Shown here in pieces: positions 11,916-17,778 of a stretch of 64,000 nt of DNA. The position numbers were made by a program, and so were the translations under genes. The stretch's first letter is position 1. Each line of letters begins with the position of its first letter. Source of the stretch: Streptomyces sp. Q6 (GTDB lineage Bacteria; Actinomycetota; Actinomycetes; Streptomycetales; Streptomycetaceae); NCBI RefSeq assembly GCF_036967205.1, contig NZ_CP146022.1, positions 3,100,001 to 3,164,000 of the forward strand. The letters run 5' to 3'. The notes below the pieces were generated by a model. That model made no database searches, was not told where the DNA came from, and saw only the letters and a list, made by a program, of their open reading frames with translations.

Positions 11916-12710
11916 ATGCCCGGAATCCACATACGCACCGCCACGCTCACCGCGGCCGCGCTGATGGCGGCCGTCACCCTCCCCCTGACCACGGCGGGCC
12001 CCGCCGCCGCGACGACCACCGCGTACGACTCGACGTACTACAAGAACGCGATCGGCAAGACCGGCACGAGCCTCAAGTCGTCGCTCCACACGATCATCAG
12101 CAGCCAGACCAAGATCTCGTACTCCGCGGTCTGGAACGCCCTGAAGGTCACCGACCAGGACCCGAACAACAGCAACAACGTGATCCTGCTGTACAGCGGA
12201 GTCTCGCGGTCCAAGACCCTCAACGGCGGCGACGTCGGCGACTGGAACCGCGAACACACCTGGGCCAAGTCGCACGGCGACTTCGGCGAGGTGACGGGCC
12301 CCGGCACGGACCTGCACCACCTGCGCCCCGCCGACGTCCAGGTCAACAGCATCCGCGGCAACAAGGACTTCGACAACGGCGGCAGCACCGTCGCGGGCGG
12401 CGGCGGCAGCCTCACCGACTCCGACTCCTTCGAGCCGCGCGACGCGGACAAGGGCGACGTGGCCCGCATGATCCTCTACATGGCGGTGCGCTACGAGGGC
12501 GACGACGGCTTCGCCGACCTGGAGCCCAACGAGTCGGTGAGCAACGGCAGCAACCCGTACATGGGCAAGCTCTCCGTCCTCAAGCAGTGGAGCGACGAGG
12601 ACCCGCCCAGCGCCTTCGAGGAGAAGCGCAACCAGGCCATCTACGACACCTACCAGCACAATCGCAACCCGTTCATCGACCATCCGGAATGGGTCGAGGC
12701 GATCTGGTAG
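11916..12710 (+). CDS. Secreted endonuclease I family nuclease
   Basis: 264-residue exported nuclease of the endonuclease I (EndA/Dns, HNH-like) family, expected to degrade DNA outside the cell for nutrient recovery. The signal peptide (MPGIHIRTATLTAAALMAAVTLPLTTAGPAAA) ends near residue 32. The family core is NREHTWAKSH followed by DLHHLRPADVQVNSIRGN, giving the catalytic His and metal-binding Asn/His residues. The C-terminal RNPFIDHPEWVEAIW matches the family end. ATG 11916 is the only sensible start for the signal peptide. It lies 17 bases after a perfect inverted repeat and is closed by a hairpin, so it is monocistronic and probably specifically regulated. Confidence 0.9.
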   Translation: MPGIHIRTATLTAAALMAAVTLPLTTAGPAAATTTAYDSTYYKNAIGKTGTSLKSSLHTIISSQTKISYSAVWNALKVTDQDPNNSNNVILLYSGVSRSKTLNGGDVGDWNREHTWAKSHGDFGEVTGPGTDLHHLRPADVQVNSIRGNKDFDNGGSTVAGGGGSLTDSDSFEPRDADKGDVARMILYMAVRYEGDDGFADLEPNESVSNGSNPYMGKLSVLKQWSDEDPPSAFEEKRNQAIYDTYQHNRNPFIDHPEWVEAIW

Positions 12711-12877: not shown

Positions 12878-13285
12878 ATGGGCGATCACAAGAATCCGAA
12901 GGACCTACGGGCCAAGCACGAGGACCTCACCAAACTCGCGGACGACCTCGACGGCATGCAGGAGTACCTGACACGTCAGGTGCGGCGTATGGACGGCATC
13001 GTGGATGCCATCGAGGCGGGGTGGCAGGGTCCGGCGGGCTCGGCGTACCGACAGTTCCATCGGGCCGCGGCGGAGGACGCGGTGCGCATCCGCGAGGTCA
13101 TGAAGGTCATCGAATCCGCGGTGCGCATGAGCCGGGACGGCTTTACGGAACGAGAGCTGGACGTGCTGGCGCGGATGCGCAGCATCAAGGTCGACATCGG
13201 CAGCGAGGTCGACCGTCTGTCCACACCGAACCCGGCCGCAGCCGAGCCGGAGGCCCGCCCGCGCAGCGGCCTCGACAGCCTGTGA
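12878..13285 (+). CDS. WXG100-family protein (first of pair)
   Basis: 135-residue helical protein with the WXG turn in EAGWQGPAGSAYRQF at about residue 50, typical of ESAT-6/WXG100 proteins that pair up and travel through type VII (ESX/EccC) secretion machines. Two long helices flank the turn (DLTKLADDLDGMQEYLTRQVRRM and DAVRIREVMKVIESAVRM), followed by a charged tail. ATG 12878 is selected because CGAGGGGGCC precedes it; the open frame extends far upstream without coding character. It heads a gene set with a second WXG100 gene 63 bases downstream and a large toxin, an arrangement typical of T7SS-delivered polymorphic toxins. No secretion machinery is in the window. Confidence 0.8.
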   Translation: MGDHKNPKDLRAKHEDLTKLADDLDGMQEYLTRQVRRMDGIVDAIEAGWQGPAGSAYRQFHRAAAEDAVRIREVMKVIESAVRMSRDGFTERELDVLARMRSIKVDIGSEVDRLSTPNPAAAEPEARPRSGLDSL

Positions 13286-13348
13286 CCTGTGTGGTCCGGA
13301 GACCATCCCGCACCGCAGCAGCACCGTAGGCAACCACAGGGGGACGAC

Positions 13349-13660
13349 ATGCCGCCGATCTCGGACGACGACCACATCACCGTCAAACTGGCCACGCTTC
13401 AACACTTGTCCGGTGAGCTGGAGGACATTCTCAAGAAGCTCAACGGGACGCTGGACGAGCTGTACGAACGTGTCGAACCCGTCGTTCTCTCGTGGAGCGG
13501 CGAGGCACGTGAGGCGTTCATCGACAAGCTGGACGAGTGGGACCGGTCCGCTCAGGATCTTCAGGCGTCACAGAAGTGGCTGCACGAGGTCGTGACCACC
13601 GGCCACATCAACTACGCGGCAGCACATCGCGCGGTGCTGCGCGGCTGGGGAGGCGCCTGA
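13349..13660 (+). CDS. WXG100-family protein (second of pair)
   Basis: 103-residue WXG100-like helical hairpin: helix 1 VKLATLQHLSGELEDILKKLNGTLDELYERVEPV, the turn SWSGEAREAF and helix 2 IDKLDEWDRSAQDLQASQKWLHEVV. It probably forms a heterodimer with the preceding WXG100 protein or with the N-terminal domain of the downstream toxin, acting as a secretion partner. ATG 13349 follows CAGGGGGACGAC. Its TGA stop overlaps the toxin ATG (TGATG), so the two are translationally coupled. Confidence 0.82.
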   Translation: MPPISDDDHITVKLATLQHLSGELEDILKKLNGTLDELYERVEPVVLSWSGEAREAFIDKLDEWDRSAQDLQASQKWLHEVVTTGHINYAAAHRAVLRGWGGA

Positions 13661-15408
13661 TGGCGGGCCCGTCCCCCACGCCGTCCCGAAGCGGCGCGCC
13701 CGGCGGCGGAACCATCGACGTCAAGCCGTCCACGCTGCACCAGGTCGCCGGTGGATTCGCCGGCCAGCAGACGCCGTTCGACAAGGGCGCCAAGGACCTG
13801 CTCACCGCGCTCAAGGAGTACCCGGACGCGGGCGGCTACGGCACCGCCCCACAGGCCTTCGCCACCGAGTACGTGAAGGTCGGCAACCGCTACTTGGAGG
13901 TATGGGCCAAGTCGGTCGCCAGCATCGGGGGCGGGGCTGTCGGCTTCGCGACGACGGCGAACAACTACTCCAGGGCGGAGGCGGCGAACGACCCGTCGGG
14001 CCGGACGCACGCCCAGGTACAGCAGCCGCCCGTCGTCATCGACAAACCGCCGAAGTACGAGTCCGTCCCCAACCTCAGATGGGGGGACGACGACGGCGGA
14101 GACGACTTCATCCGCTCGCTCTTGGAGTGGATACCGGATGTCGTCTGGCACATCATCCGCCCGCTCCTGGAACACGCGTTCCGCTGGGGCAAGGTCGCCG
14201 AGGTCTATCCGTTCCCTCAGCAGCACTACGTGCAGTCGCTCTCCGAGGCCTGGAGAGACTCTACGGTCCCGCTGGGTATGACGATGGGCGGCCTCGACGG
14301 GCTCGTCAGCAGCATCACGCAACAGAGCAACAGCGAATGGCACGACGCCATGCGTCAGTTCTGCAGTTCGCTCTGGGGCAGCACGGCATGGGGGCAGTCC
14401 ACCGCGGGCTATCAGTGGAAGCACGACAGCGCCTCCAGCCAAACGGCCACGCATCCGGTCATGGCGGTGCTCCACGACTCCGCCATGAAGGTCAGCAGCC
14501 TGCTGCACGAATACGCCGAAGCCGCCGTCGACCTGAACGGCAAGGTCTGGGACATCTACTTCAAAGCCGTGAAACAGGCCGTGGGCGACATCGACCTCAG
14601 CGACGGCGTCGACCTCAAGGACCTCAAGGAGGGCGCCAAGGGAGTCGGCCGATTCCTGAAAGGCGTGGTCACGGGCGGCGCGGAGCTCGGTGCCGAGATC
14701 ACTCTGAACATCGACACGGCCGCACTGAACGCCGTGGTGGAGGCGTACAACCGCCGCGTGAACGCCCTTACGCCGCAACTCACCGCACTCATGGGACCGC
14801 TCGACGAGGCATACCGCAGCGCACCCACCTACGCGGCGGAGGAGGCACGGGCCGAAGCGTTCGGGGCCCGTGCGCTCAATGACTTCAAGCACGATCTGAA
14901 GTGGACCGACCCAGAGAACGCCAAGAACGGCATTTACAAGATCGACCTGGCGAGCAACGAGTGGCTGGGAGGCGGCCACACCCTGGACAAGCACGTCGGC
15001 AAGACCGATGAGCAGCTGGCCCAGCGGCTGCGGGACCAAGGCGGTCCGCCCACCGCTGCCTGGCCACACGGAAGGCCTGCCATCGGCGGTGCGTCCACCT
15101 TCGCGACGCCCGAGCGCGCCCAGGAACTGACGCAGTACAACGTCGACCAGAACTCCAGCCAGATCAAGACGTGGCTGGACGACCCGAACCGAGACCCGAA
15201 ACTACCCATCCAAACCGAGGCGCCGAACGGCGAATACAGTGGCCGAAGCGTCACCAAGCAGCCGAACGACGTGAATCACCAAGGCTTCAAAACCGACGGG
15301 CTCGATGCCGAGGCCATCCCTGTGAAGGGCGTCAGAACCATTCTGAAGTACGACCCCTCGCTCGATCCGCCGTTCGTCGTGCTGACGTCGATGCCTGAAC
15401 AGGCCTGA
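13660..15408 (+). CDS. Polymorphic toxin: T7SS-type N-terminus, RNase A-like CdiA-CT C-terminus
   Basis: 582-residue toxin. Residues ~18-110 (IDVKPSTLHQVAGGF..., ...VWAKSVASIGGGAVGFATTANNY) look like a WXG/ESX-type helical delivery domain, followed by a long helical linker region. The C-terminal ~145 residues match the bacterial CdiA-CT RNase A-like domain: GGHTLDKHVGKTDEQLAQRLRD, ASTFATPERAQ, IKTWLDD, VRTILKYD and FVVLTSMP. By analogy with the Yersinia kristensenii CDI toxin, His445 (KHV), Arg456 and Thr576 are the likely catalytic residues. The predicted action is cleavage of target-cell RNA after delivery to competitors. The start overlaps the upstream stop, with GGGGAGG before it. Base composition is visibly less GC-extreme than neighbours, suggesting acquisition. 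Delivery by type VII secretion is inferred from the WXG100 partners. Confidence 0.85.
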   Translation: MAGPSPTPSRSGAPGGGTIDVKPSTLHQVAGGFAGQQTPFDKGAKDLLTALKEYPDAGGYGTAPQAFATEYVKVGNRYLEVWAKSVASIGGGAVGFATTANNYSRAEAANDPSGRTHAQVQQPPVVIDKPPKYESVPNLRWGDDDGGDDFIRSLLEWIPDVVWHIIRPLLEHAFRWGKVAEVYPFPQQHYVQSLSEAWRDSTVPLGMTMGGLDGLVSSITQQSNSEWHDAMRQFCSSLWGSTAWGQSTAGYQWKHDSASSQTATHPVMAVLHDSAMKVSSLLHEYAEAAVDLNGKVWDIYFKAVKQAVGDIDLSDGVDLKDLKEGAKGVGRFLKGVVTGGAELGAEITLNIDTAALNAVVEAYNRRVNALTPQLTALMGPLDEAYRSAPTYAAEEARAEAFGARALNDFKHDLKWTDPENAKNGIYKIDLASNEWLGGGHTLDKHVGKTDEQLAQRLRDQGGPPTAAWPHGRPAIGGASTFATPERAQELTQYNVDQNSSQIKTWLDDPNRDPKLPIQTEAPNGEYSGRSVTKQPNDVNHQGFKTDGLDAEAIPVKGVRTILKYDPSLDPPFVVLTSMPEQA

Positions 15409-15472
15409 TCTCAGCAGTCGTGGACCACCTATACCGGGAGCAACAATCAACACACGCTGGTATCCCGAATCG

Positions 15473-16099
15473 ATGACGTGGCGGGACGTCGAACCCGCGA
15501 AGCACCCCTTCGACCCCAGCCGCGCGCTGGACGCTGTGCGCGCGGTCGTCGCCTCTCCCGACCCGGAATCGGGCCGCCCCCGTGGACTCTGGTCCGACAA
15601 CTCGATCGCTCAAGGTCTCGCCGAGCACTACGGAACGTGGGCGTTCGGCTGGTACACCGCCATGCAGTTGTACCCGGACTCCGGCACGGTGATCAGGGAG
15701 CTTCCGCCCTGTGGCCTCGGTGCCCGTGATCTCGATCAGCAGGCGCGCCGCTACACCGACGCACTCCTCCAGTGGCGCGGATGGCTGGAGGAGCTAGCCG
15801 CTGCCTTCGCTCCTTTCGTACCCGGGCCGGACAGTGACGCGGCAACACGTCGACAGTTGCGCGAAAGCGGAGTCGCAGCCCTGGTCACGCTCGTCGTGGA
15901 ACGGACGCAGGCCGGCGAACTGTGGCTCGGCACCTGTGCTCAAGCCCTCACCTGGTTCCTGGAGGCGACGGGCGTGCCCGTTGCAGAGGCCGAGGAACTT
16001 GTGGACGACATCGTGGACGGTGAGTTCGCCAGTTGGGTCGCCCCCGACGCCGAAGCGATCGGCCGGGCGCGGAAGGCTGTCGGGGAACACCGTGCGTGA
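15473..16099 (+). CDS. Unrecognised acidic protein, probable immunity protein to the RNase toxin
   Basis: 208-residue soluble, mostly helical, acidic protein of no family I recognise. It starts 64 bases after the toxin stop on the same strand, the usual place of the cognate immunity gene in polymorphic toxin loci, and an RNase-bearing cell would need one. Its stop overlaps the GTG start of the Fic gene by 8 bases, so it might instead be a partner or antitoxin of the Fic protein. Trp-rich stretches (GTWAFGWYTAMQLY, LLQWRGWLEELAAAFAPF) and VVERTQAGELWLGTCAQALTWFLEATG are its main landmarks. ATG 15473 is the first available start; its ribosome site is weak. Confidence 0.6.
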   Translation: MTWRDVEPAKHPFDPSRALDAVRAVVASPDPESGRPRGLWSDNSIAQGLAEHYGTWAFGWYTAMQLYPDSGTVIRELPPCGLGARDLDQQARRYTDALLQWRGWLEELAAAFAPFVPGPDSDAATRRQLRESGVAALVTLVVERTQAGELWLGTCAQALTWFLEATGVPVAEAEELVDDIVDGEFASWVAPDAEAIGRARKAVGEHRA

Positions 16100-16754
16100 C
16101 GCCCTCGAGTCCTGGCTCGACGTGCGTTCCTCAGTGGACTGGGGCCGCCTGTGCCCGGATGTGTCCGGGCCTGTCCGGGGGCGGCGCGACGGTATCGACG
16201 CTGCGGCGGTTGCCCGTCGCGATGTCCGTGATCCGGGCAGGGGTGAACGGTTGCGCGCTGCTTGGCGCCAAGCCAAACGAGATGCGGCGGCGGGCCGTGA
16301 TCTCGATTTCGGACGCCTCGCCGGTTGGCAGGAGGTGCTTCTCGGACGCCCTGACGTGGCACTTCGCACTCACCCCGCATACGCCAAGGGTGGCCGGGAG
16401 CGGTATGGCGTGACCGGGGCCACCGCGCGGCAGTTCTCGTCCTGCCTGGCCGAGGCCACGCGTTCCGAGACCGACGAGCCGCTCCCGGCCCGTGCCGCTC
16501 GCGTCTATCTGGACATCTGCTTTTTCCACCCGTTCGACGACGGCAACGGCCGTGCGGCGCTGCTCGCCCTTGGGCACGTCCTCGCACGCGAGGACGTCAT
16601 CCTGGATGAGGTCGGCCCGCTTCACATCCCGCGATACGCCCCTGACCCGTACGGTCCTCAGTCACTGTCGCGGCTGGTCCACGCCCTTGTGCGGGCCGCC
16701 GCGAGCAGGGGCGGTGGGCCTGTTTCCCCTGTCCCTTCCTCCGCCAGGCGGTAG
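16092..16754 (+). CDS. Fic-domain protein
   Basis: 220-residue Fic/Doc-fold protein. The active-site loop is FFHPFDDGNGRAAL (His146), matching the HPFx(D/E)GNGR signature of enzymes that transfer AMP or another nucleotide/phosphate moiety to a protein hydroxyl. The helix before it (ARQFSSCLAEATR...ARAARVYLDI) is typical. No clear (S/T)xxxE(G/N) inhibitory helix is seen, so control may come from another protein; the gene it overlaps by 8 bases is the obvious candidate. GTG 16092 is chosen because the reading frame upstream lies inside the previous gene and the overlap suggests coupled translation. Its role (toxin, toxin tail or immunity partner) is not settled. Confidence 0.75.
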   Translation: MRDALESWLDVRSSVDWGRLCPDVSGPVRGRRDGIDAAAVARRDVRDPGRGERLRAAWRQAKRDAAAGRDLDFGRLAGWQEVLLGRPDVALRTHPAYAKGGRERYGVTGATARQFSSCLAEATRSETDEPLPARAARVYLDICFFHPFDDGNGRAALLALGHVLAREDVILDEVGPLHIPRYAPDPYGPQSLSRLVHALVRAAASRGGGPVSPVPSSARR

Positions 16755-16763
16755 TCAGCACTC

Positions 16764-17084
16764 ATGTCCGTCCCACCACCTCCGACTCGCTCCAGAAGCG
16801 CCTCCTACCCCGACCGCGAAACCGCGCAATGGGCCACCCAACAGGTCGTCACCGCCAACGAGCAGTTGATCCACCGCTGGCTCGCCCAGCGGACCCGCTC
16901 CCGGCTGACCGTCGAAGCGTCATGGCCGTCGCGGCCCGATCCGGTGGGCCGGGTCCTGTTGCAGGCCATGATGCTGGCCGGCCGGGAGCCCGTGGACGTA
17001 CGCGCGGCCCGGGTGATTCTGAAGCGGGAGCCTTCCGTCCCGCACGGGTTCGTCGTGCACGCCTCGTTCCCGATCTACGTATAG
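16764..17084 (+). CDS. Orphan RNase A-like toxin tail (truncated CdiA-CT domain)
   Basis: 106-residue protein beginning 9 bases after the Fic stop. From SASYPDRETAQWATQQVV through NEQLIHRWLAQ to VRAARVILKREP...HGFVVHASFPIYV it lines up with the C-terminal two thirds of the RNase A-like domain of the toxin at 13660 (STFATPERAQELTQYNV, SSQIKTWLDD, GVRTILKYD...FVVLTSMP). The segment carrying the first catalytic His (HTLDKHV) is absent and the Thr of LTSMP is replaced by Ala (HASFP). It is therefore probably a displaced, inactive toxin tip of the 'orphan' type found beside immunity genes, or a reservoir for recombination. Start ATG 16764 has only a weak AGGCGG site. Confidence 0.65.
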   Translation: MSVPPPPTRSRSASYPDRETAQWATQQVVTANEQLIHRWLAQRTRSRLTVEASWPSRPDPVGRVLLQAMMLAGREPVDVRAARVILKREPSVPHGFVVHASFPIYV

Positions 17085-17097
17085 AGGTCTGTCCGTC

Positions 17098-17778
17098 ATG
17101 CCGATGAGTCCCCTCGAACACGACCACCGCTACGGCGAGTTGGACCAGGTACTGCGTGCGTACGTGGGTCAGCCCGCCGACGACACGCAGGACAGGCCGA
17201 GCGTCGCCCTCACGGCGTACCTGCGCCACACCTGGCACACCCGCCCCTGGGCGCTGGCCGTCGCCGAGTCACAGGTGCGCGAGTACGCCCGCAACCCGCC
17301 GGGGCGCCTGCGCCTCAGGCTCGGCGAGTTCTACCCGGTACCCGATGTCGGACTGGCCGAGGACGGCGTCCAGGACTGGCTGTTCGTCCTCGCCGACCAC
17401 ATCAAGCGCGGTGTCGAGGAGGGCGAGGTGCCGCCACCGGCCGCTCCCGAGACCCACTGGGAGTGGCACGCCCGCTTCCCGGAGCTGGGCCAGTTCCTGG
17501 GGGGCTGGTTCTCCCAGGACATGCCGGACGAGTGCGACACCCATGACACGGCGATCGCCGACTACGTCGCCGGTACGCACCCGAGCCTCGTCGCCCGCCT
17601 CGCCGGGGAACTCGGCGAACTGCTCGCGCTCGACCTCGACGAGGCCGACTACGCCCAGGCGCTCGCGGAGTTGGGCATGGAGGTCGACCCGCCGGAGCCG
17701 TACGCGCCGAGCGGGTGGCTGGCGCTGGTCATGGCGCGGCTGAGCGGGCCCGCCGCGGTGTACGGGCCGCGCCCCTAG
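17098..17778 (+). CDS. CdiI_2-like contact-dependent inhibition immunity protein
   Basis: 226-residue acidic protein. The second half, FPELGQFLGGWFSQDMPDE then THPSLVARLAGELGELLALDLDEADYAQALAELGMEVDPPE, matches the pattern of small CdiI_2-type immunity proteins (a conserved aromatic-Q-D motif and a helical EL...L...D segment). The N-terminal ~100 residues are an extra region. It sits 13 bases after the orphan RNase A-like tail, forming a second toxin-tip/immunity pair. The immunity call rests on pattern recognition and context. Its TAG stop shares the CTAG with the stop of the convergent gene. Confidence 0.65.
   Translation: MPMSPLEHDHRYGELDQVLRAYVGQPADDTQDRPSVALTAYLRHTWHTRPWALAVAESQVREYARNPPGRLRLRLGEFYPVPDVGLAEDGVQDWLFVLADHIKRGVEEGEVPPPAAPETHWEWHARFPELGQFLGGWFSQDMPDECDTHDTAIADYVAGTHPSLVARLAGELGELLALDLDEADYAQALAELGMEVDPPEPYAPSGWLALVMARLSGPAAVYGPRP

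Follow-up and report, generated by a model that had tools for sequence, protein, structure and literature searches.

A probable WXG100-linked toxin locus in Streptomyces: a tip and slot gene exchanged, it appears, within a conserved frame that holds a shortened RNase A relative

The window analysed here, a stretch of 64,000 nucleotides of Streptomyces sp. Q6 with a GC content of 70.7% and part of an 8.95-Mb genome in two contigs, contains a probable toxin locus. Its seven consecutive open reading frames all lie on the plus strand between positions 12878 and 17778, as a sequence-only reading of the same DNA had described. Two genes for WXG100 proteins come first, WXG1 (12878..13285, 135 residues; PF06013, 2.2e-10) and WXG2 (13349..13660, 103 residues; PF06013, 1.6e-10). 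They are followed by the gene for a toxin of 582 residues, which can be divided into an N-terminal part (TOXN, 13660..14949, residues 1-430) and an RNase A-like tip (TOXC, 14950..15408, residues 431-582). The position behind the tip, which we call the slot, is occupied by G4 (15473..16099, 208 residues). This gene is overlapped by one for a Fic protein of 220 residues (16092..16754; PF02661, 9.9e-8), the overlap being a result of the GTG start codon at 16092 that was chosen in this analysis. TAIL (16764..17084, 106 residues; PF18431, 8.9e-12), which encodes an RNase A-like protein without the first helix, and the gene of a CdiI_2 protein (17098..17778, 226 residues; PF18593, 1.6e-26) complete the locus. 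The Pfam matches of WXG1, WXG2, TOXC, Fic, TAIL and CdiI_2 exceed the curated cut-offs; with NCBIfam, WXG1 (39.6 bits) and WXG2 (43.1 bits) score slightly below the cut-off of 44.85 bits. The W-x-G motif itself is present in 65 of 71 relatives of WXG1 and in all 70 of WXG2. Against a defence-system library only Fic and, once, WXG1 gave matches, all of them weak.

The usual order in relatives, whose gene models rest on profile matches and simple start-codon rules, is WXG1, WXG2, TOXN-TOXC, slot gene, TAIL, CdiI_2. Since the gene order was found again in dozens of genomes, the seven-gene arrangement is not due to chance. WXG1 lies on the strand opposite to the rest of the operon in six loci (L039, L059, L066, L070, L072 and L232). 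Relatives were compared in two sets. The G set holds 60 loci around the PF18431 places of a scan of 199 genomes from the genus; the named set holds the 80 best of 182 TAIL loci from named GTDB genomes, all titled Streptomyces. The latter was picked by TAIL similarity, so that the presence of TAIL is given there by construction and the scan of the 199 genomes is the less biased source. The sets share several strains (e.g. L055/L200 and L067/L141) and are not independent, and for one locus (L041) the G-set pipeline picked a second, damaged tail copy. Where TAIL and N-domains are matched up in the 199-genome scan, the counts cover 44 N-domains of full length and 51 TAIL places that are open and near-full-length, with coordinates copied by hand; a TAIL with an in-frame stop, partial or weak TAIL rows and shorter N-domain rows were left out, and one N-domain with an in-frame stop (G019:C2) was kept.

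The tip matches PF18431 (RNAse_A_bac) at toxin residues 439-579 over the whole profile (positions 1-113), with 72.9 bits against a cut-off of 27 (4.7e-20), which is the result of the profile search that the sequence-only reading had suggested. In addition, the profile of the toxin family aligns end to end (residues 1-113, 5.3e-13) with the toxin chain 5e3e_B of Yersinia kristensenii. In the Yersinia toxin His175, Arg186, Thr276 and Tyr278 are all required for full activity, according to the part of a review considered here (PMC9086364), which also places Gram-positive members in the bacterial RNase A branch. The first three are kept in the window tip as His445, Arg456 and Thr576, and Met578 replaces the tyrosine. 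Among 76 aligned tips the catalytic His and Arg are kept without exception, the third position is always Thr or Ser, and the fourth is Met in 62 tips and Tyr in 10. Identity is distributed unevenly along the tip, with a mean of 0.76 in toxin residues 440-460 versus 0.37 in residues 461-560. TOXN was found in 46 and PF18431 in 70 of the 199 genomes, and an RNase A-like match lies within 200 bases downstream of all 44 full-length N-domains (one of these matches being cut to profile positions 1-57, and one carrying an in-frame stop). No other class of toxin domain was found behind these 44, so variety in the class of tip is not supported in the genomes scanned; the tips vary in sequence only. Other Streptomyces also have RNase A-like domains within much longer open frames, of about 1,500-2,400 residues (G025:C1:1139761, G185:C32:138829 and others), which probably represent other toxin types.

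Effector loci of ESX, or type VII secretion systems (T7SS), are marked by WXG100 partner genes and by a YxxxD/E signal. Here, two WXG100 genes lie directly 5' of the toxin gene, and a YxxA[DE] motif occurs in 60 of 60 aligned toxins (residues 103-107 in the window). The sequence-only reading presupposed an ESX system in the genome, and the ESX ATPase EccC was indeed found there (773.8 bits, E 1.2e-232, cut-off 346.55). We regard the locus as one for a WXG100/ESX-linked toxin that is probably antibacterial.

The genes of the locus differ strongly in conservation. Over 65 complete loci the median pairwise identity is 0.78 for TAIL, 0.73 for CdiI_2, 0.68 for WXG2, 0.60 for WXG1, 0.44 for TOXC and 0.38 for TOXN, and the G set ranks the six genes in the same order. 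In the same 65 loci the distance matrices of WXG1, WXG2, TAIL and CdiI_2 correlate with one another (Spearman 0.50-0.85), and those of TOXN and TOXC correlate with the matrices of these four frame genes at only -0.01 to 0.10. The four frame genes adjoin in L079, L080 and L082, where the WXG pair lies immediately 5' of TAIL and CdiI_2, with the toxin and slot gene upstream. The tip instead follows the gene in the slot. In the named set together with the window the first slot gene belongs to family A in 46 of 76 labelled loci, to family B in 25 and to the G4 family in four, and one locus has none; those slot proteins of the G set that lent themselves to clustering likewise form two families (21 and 17 loci), with the window apart. 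When the 76 of 81 loci with an intact tip and a slot label are considered, the nearest tip shares the slot type in 73, against 47 of 70 nearest neighbours for WXG1, 48 of 69 for WXG2, 53 of 67 for TOXN, 53 of 76 for TAIL and 49 of 74 for CdiI_2. In the 65-locus set this agreement amounts to 0.95 for TOXC and to 0.65-0.68 for the frame genes, whereas shuffled labels gave 0.46 on average and 0.68 at most.

Natural swaps, read from blastn rows of more than 120 bases, point in the same direction. Between L153 and L169 DNA identity is about 90% from the WXG genes up to some 60 bases 5' of the tip. No match follows where one has a tip with G4-Fic and the other a tip with SLOTA, and an identity of 91% sets in near the start of TAIL; similarity between L153 and L149 also resumes there. 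L195 and L173 share 84% identity until roughly base 720 of the toxin gene, are then unmatched, and reach 95% identity from slightly 5' of SLOTA onward. L195 carries a different tip with G4-Fic plus a SLOTA gene, and SLOTA is the sole slot gene of L173. This is the pattern expected if tip and immunity gene had been replaced jointly and the old immunity gene left behind, the direction of the change being our inference. Stacked slot genes occur also in L186, L194, L211, L213 and L216. From these comparisons we consider it very probable that a conserved frame of WXG1, WXG2, TAIL and CdiI_2 surrounds an exchanged cassette, made up of the tip and the gene behind it; the cassette sometimes includes more of the toxin than the tip. 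Frame, cassette and interchangeable slot families emerge from the comparison and are invisible in the window alone. The return of DNA similarity near the start of TAIL, in L153 versus both L169 and L149, could also mean that TAIL and CdiI_2 are retained chiefly as a homology arm for cassette exchange. We find this hardly credible, as the TAIL protein is under strong selection (see below) and the similarity between L195 and L173 returns 5' of SLOTA instead.

The link between tip and slot gene makes it likely that the slot gene provides immunity to its own tip. In the window this position, held by families A and B in relatives, is taken by G4, for which no match was found in Pfam or NCBIfam up to an E-value of 1. 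Four G4 loci were counted, the window and those of S. hokutonensis (L153), S. tagetis (L177) and S. griseofuscus (L195); L210, in which G4-Fic lacks an intact tip, was not counted, and in L127 the pair stands behind a toxin remnant. G4 as a one-off gene was rejected, as relatives occur in at least 96 of 392 genomes, mostly away from this kind of locus (genome searches score a limited number of candidates per genome, and counts such as this one are lower bounds). In 32 of 34 distinct places, merged by hand where a place had been fetched twice, a Fic gene lies beside G4 or is fused to it, 12 of them being fused in one frame. Among 33 crude gene calls that neighbour G4-Fic elsewhere, taken from nine loci, no family appeared in more than two. 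The Fic core motif is HPFx[DE]GN[GK]R; the window, L153, L177, L195 and L210 have HPFDDGNGR and L127 has HPFHDGNGR, and the wider family mostly has Ala in place of the second Gly. Partners of Fic toxins in toxin-antitoxin pairs carry an inhibitory [ST]xxxE[GN] motif. This canonical motif was found in one of the 34 places (L106, the same as L135) and not in the window, and G4 as a partner of that canonical type was consequently rejected.

G4-Fic could instead be a passenger, either a toxin-antitoxin pair or a second toxin, with CdiI_2 alone as the immunity to the tip. The wide occurrence of G4 elsewhere, its near-constant association with Fic and the existence of loci with an empty slot agree with this, as does the inclusion of Fic/Doc among toxin classes with WXG export in the consulted part of a 2012 survey (PMC3482391). 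However, for each of the four G4-Fic loci with an intact tip the other three supply the nearest tips by identity (ranks 1, 2 and 3), whereas in other genes these loci are mostly scattered (exceptions are the TAIL of L177, which is nearest to that of L153, and the WXG2 of L195, for which that of L153 is second nearest). Moreover, no slot gene besides G4-Fic was found in the window, L153 and L177, and G4 has no canonical Fic-inhibiting motif. A passenger role thus appears rather unlikely, and we prefer G4, perhaps with Fic, as the immunity of its tip. An enzyme would be unusual as an antidote, and a G4 that acts by binding is the simpler guess.

TAIL is the best conserved of the six genes, with a median ratio of nonsynonymous to synonymous substitution (dN/dS) of 0.217, a value not comparable with those of TOXN, TOXC and the slot genes, for which only pairs of at least 60% identity were used. 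It covers positions 26-113 of the PF18431 profile only, and the TAIL family profile (A3) matches residues 27-112 of 5e3e_B (2.3e-5); the helix bearing the catalytic His and Arg is missing in all 81 loci. A model of the first helix of the tips gave no match (E below 1) in the forward frames of the 300 bases 5' of TAIL in any of the 81 loci, whereas all 74 control tips were recognised by it. The first upstream start codon is located four codons 5' of the conserved TAIL block in 47 of 76 scored loci (four more lack the search motif). The position of the catalytic Thr is Ala in 61 TAILs, Ser in nine, Thr in nine and Gly in two, and that of the Tyr is Phe in 70, Val in nine, Leu in one and Tyr in one. 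TAIL is conserved and shortened, and it is probably an inactive relative of the toxin's fold. In 64 aligned TAILs His37, Arg38, Trp39, Arg45, Arg47, Glu51, Trp54 and Pro55 (window residues 37-55) are invariant, which may mark a binding surface.

The sequence-only reading had called this gene an orphan tail, a description that does not hold given the identical truncation in 81 of 81 loci and the presence of TAIL within 5 kb of 42 of 44 full-length N-domains. Of the two exceptions, one lies on a contig that ends before the position of TAIL, and in the other only the first part of the tip is left. Conversely, nine of the 51 TAIL places have no full-length N-domain in reach. One of these is probably the other half of that interrupted contig, which leaves eight that keep TAIL after loss or shortening of the toxin. 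Three further genera of the family have TAIL as well, with the usual gene order in L231, L232, L233 and L234 and a broken toxin in L230; among 396 genomes sampled over the phylum, those outside the genus of the window gave nothing beyond weak matches to other RNase A-like proteins.

In a tree of 52 sequences TAIL groups with eight RNase A tips of other toxins that lie directly 5' of a CdiI_2 gene, and this assembly is split from the tips of the present locus with an ultrafast bootstrap (UFBoot) of 100. At 0.001 the TAIL profile matched such tips of other toxins and no intact tip of this locus (24 candidates scored per genome). Other Streptomyces proteins with a full RNase A-like tip, followed directly by a CdiI_2 that is about one third identical to that of the window, were observed in L087-L093 and L095. 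The kinship of TAIL with tips that precede CdiI_2, its location where the exchanged cassette ends on the right, and the habit of keeping old slot genes behind new ones would fit an orphan tip-immunity module. TAIL would then be a former tip that was displaced and now serves as a reservoir or survives as a remnant, a situation seen at other polymorphic toxin loci and close to what the sequence-only reading had in mind. Such an origin seems very unlikely to explain the present role of TAIL and CdiI_2. A reservoir is expected to be full-length and varied, whereas TAIL is monophyletic (19 of 19 sampled sequences, support 71), uniformly truncated and conserved under the selection given above, and it follows the frame rather than the tips.

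The CdiI_2 protein of the window reaches 93.3 bits with PF18593 (cut-off 26.7). Its family profile A5, which includes five CdiI_2 proteins from other loci, matches the Yersinia CdiI chain 5e3e_A (1.3e-10); as a single query against solved structures the window protein matched no CdiI chain. TAIL and CdiI_2 thus correspond to the toxin and the immunity chain of a single solved complex, which supports an immunity-side pair, as does the grouping of TAIL with tips that directly precede CdiI_2. Both genes are also retained where the toxin is gone and where the slot is empty (L048 and L055/L200), which favours a constant module on that side. We accordingly lean towards the view that TAIL and CdiI_2 belong to the immunity side. 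Alternatively, they could form a chaperone-like pair for folding, loading or export of the toxin. The history that TAIL and CdiI_2 have in common with the WXG pair, their place directly 3' of that pair in L079, L080 and L082 and the near-constant company of the full-length N-domain agree with such a function. It nevertheless looks unlikely to us, as the CdiI_2 family includes a known inhibitor of an RNase A toxin and TAIL is kept in eight places without a full-length N-domain.

Taken together, the best explanation may run as follows, the roles of the proteins being taken from knowledge of their families. The toxin would be exported via ESX with the help of the WXG pair, and its tip would cut RNA in neighbouring cells. 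The producer would be shielded from its own tip by the slot gene, in the window G4 and perhaps Fic as well, the slot and CdiI_2 proteins acting as inhibitors of the toxin. Beyond family knowledge, we propose that TAIL and CdiI_2 derive from an older RNase A-inhibitor pair. TAIL would have dropped the helix that bears the catalytic His and Arg, and CdiI_2 would have kept it as an inactive RNase A companion. The two would then form a standing second layer of immunity that stays constant while the tips change, with TAIL as a partner, stabiliser or decoy for CdiI_2, or as a binder of the toxin. For this explanation as a whole, from frame and cassette to export, slot immunity and the TAIL-CdiI_2 pair, we put the chances at slightly better than even. 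A pseudo-RNase for immunity that could guard, together with CdiI_2, against many RNase A-like tips is a doubtful idea by comparison. The first helix is both the segment missing from TAIL and the most alike segment among the varying tips, and a pseudo-RNase might perhaps bind it in the manner of the pieces of RNase S. RNase S is a split RNase A in which the S-peptide, the N-terminal helix, holds a catalytic His. TAIL lacks roughly this segment; it differs in being encoded by a gene of its own and in having lost the remaining catalytic residues, and complementation of the RNase S kind would be a guess from the analogy.

Several observations weigh against this explanation. Toxin residues 1-112 gave no significant WXG-like match in a profile comparison with WXG1 and WXG2. 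The slot-type agreement of TOXN in the 65-locus set (0.78) exceeds the shuffled maximum for that gene (0.72), so that TOXN would move partly with the tip, and nearest-neighbour agreement lies above the shuffled mean for all genes, because near relatives are present in the set. The single TAIL group stands on a long branch, and its split from all other sequences has a support of only 71. In L064 TAIL is present and no CdiI_2 match was found, and the correlation between TAIL and CdiI_2 beyond that with the WXG genes is weak (0.21, versus 0.12 for TAIL and TOXC). Finally, joint loss of TAIL and toxin would likewise be expected for an export partner, a role for which the few retained copies would leave room.

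An RNase A-like tip on a WXG-linked toxin, the headline of the sequence-only reading, is not new, as the 2012 survey (PMC3482391, in the part consulted) lists Ntox41 with the motifs [RK]H, [KR] and [ST]xxP, with Actinobacteria among the hosts and with T7SS export (WXG, LXG). The window tip has DKH, R and TSMP in the same order and is taken as an Ntox41 domain, which we infer to be PF18431. The entry of the Ntox41 table as consulted names no immunity protein and mentions no truncated partner, whereas the present locus has TAIL. With the CdiA-CT/CdiI pair of Yersinia the locus shares the tip, which matches chain B of 5E3E over its length, and CdiI_2, whose family profile matches chain A. However, the Yersinia toxin is part of a two-partner protein of contact-dependent inhibition (CDI), the Streptomyces CdiI_2 is about 120 residues longer at the N-terminus than the Yersinia CdiI, and the apparently dead RNase A gene 5' of CdiI_2 is extra. 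In the esaG/tipC arrays of the Firmicutes (PMC9484751, consulted in part) immunity genes likewise stand in strings behind a T7SS toxin and are exchanged by recombination; those arrays consist of tandem relatives of one family, whereas here three unrelated-looking families share one slot in a fixed frame. Two structurally distinct immunity proteins for one toxin are also known from Tde5 with Tdi5a and Tdi5b (PMC13392607), a DNase of the type VI secretion system (T6SS) of Pseudomonas, for which the consulted part describes no dead relative of the toxin. A further paper (PMC12691689), as far as it was consulted, concerns other exported toxins.

In papers under open licence, where absence carries little weight, no description of this locus and none on the topic of dead-toxin immunity was found. 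The toxin is of a known kind; what is new is the conserved, apparently dead RNase A partner and the Fic-containing slot in the immunity position. If our explanation is correct, the locus documents in nature the joint exchange of tip and antidote within a fixed frame, and provides an example of an inactive relative of a toxin that is conserved to serve the protective side. The Fic pair in the immunity position would then be either an enzyme-based antidote or point to a role for its partner G4.

The presence of a WXG100-linked toxin with an RNase A-like tip and of a CdiI_2-like protein, as described from the sequence alone, has been borne out by these comparisons. The acquisition that had been proposed on the basis of a lower GC content is supported for the cassette of tip and immunity gene, by the swaps between relatives. 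The composition itself agrees in part: TOXN (66%) and TOXC (65%) lie below the window average, but Fic and CdiI_2 are at 70-72%, and a value of 67% is also found for the gene directly 5' of the locus, which encodes an endonuclease I family protein (11916-12710, plus strand; PF04231, 2.1e-41).

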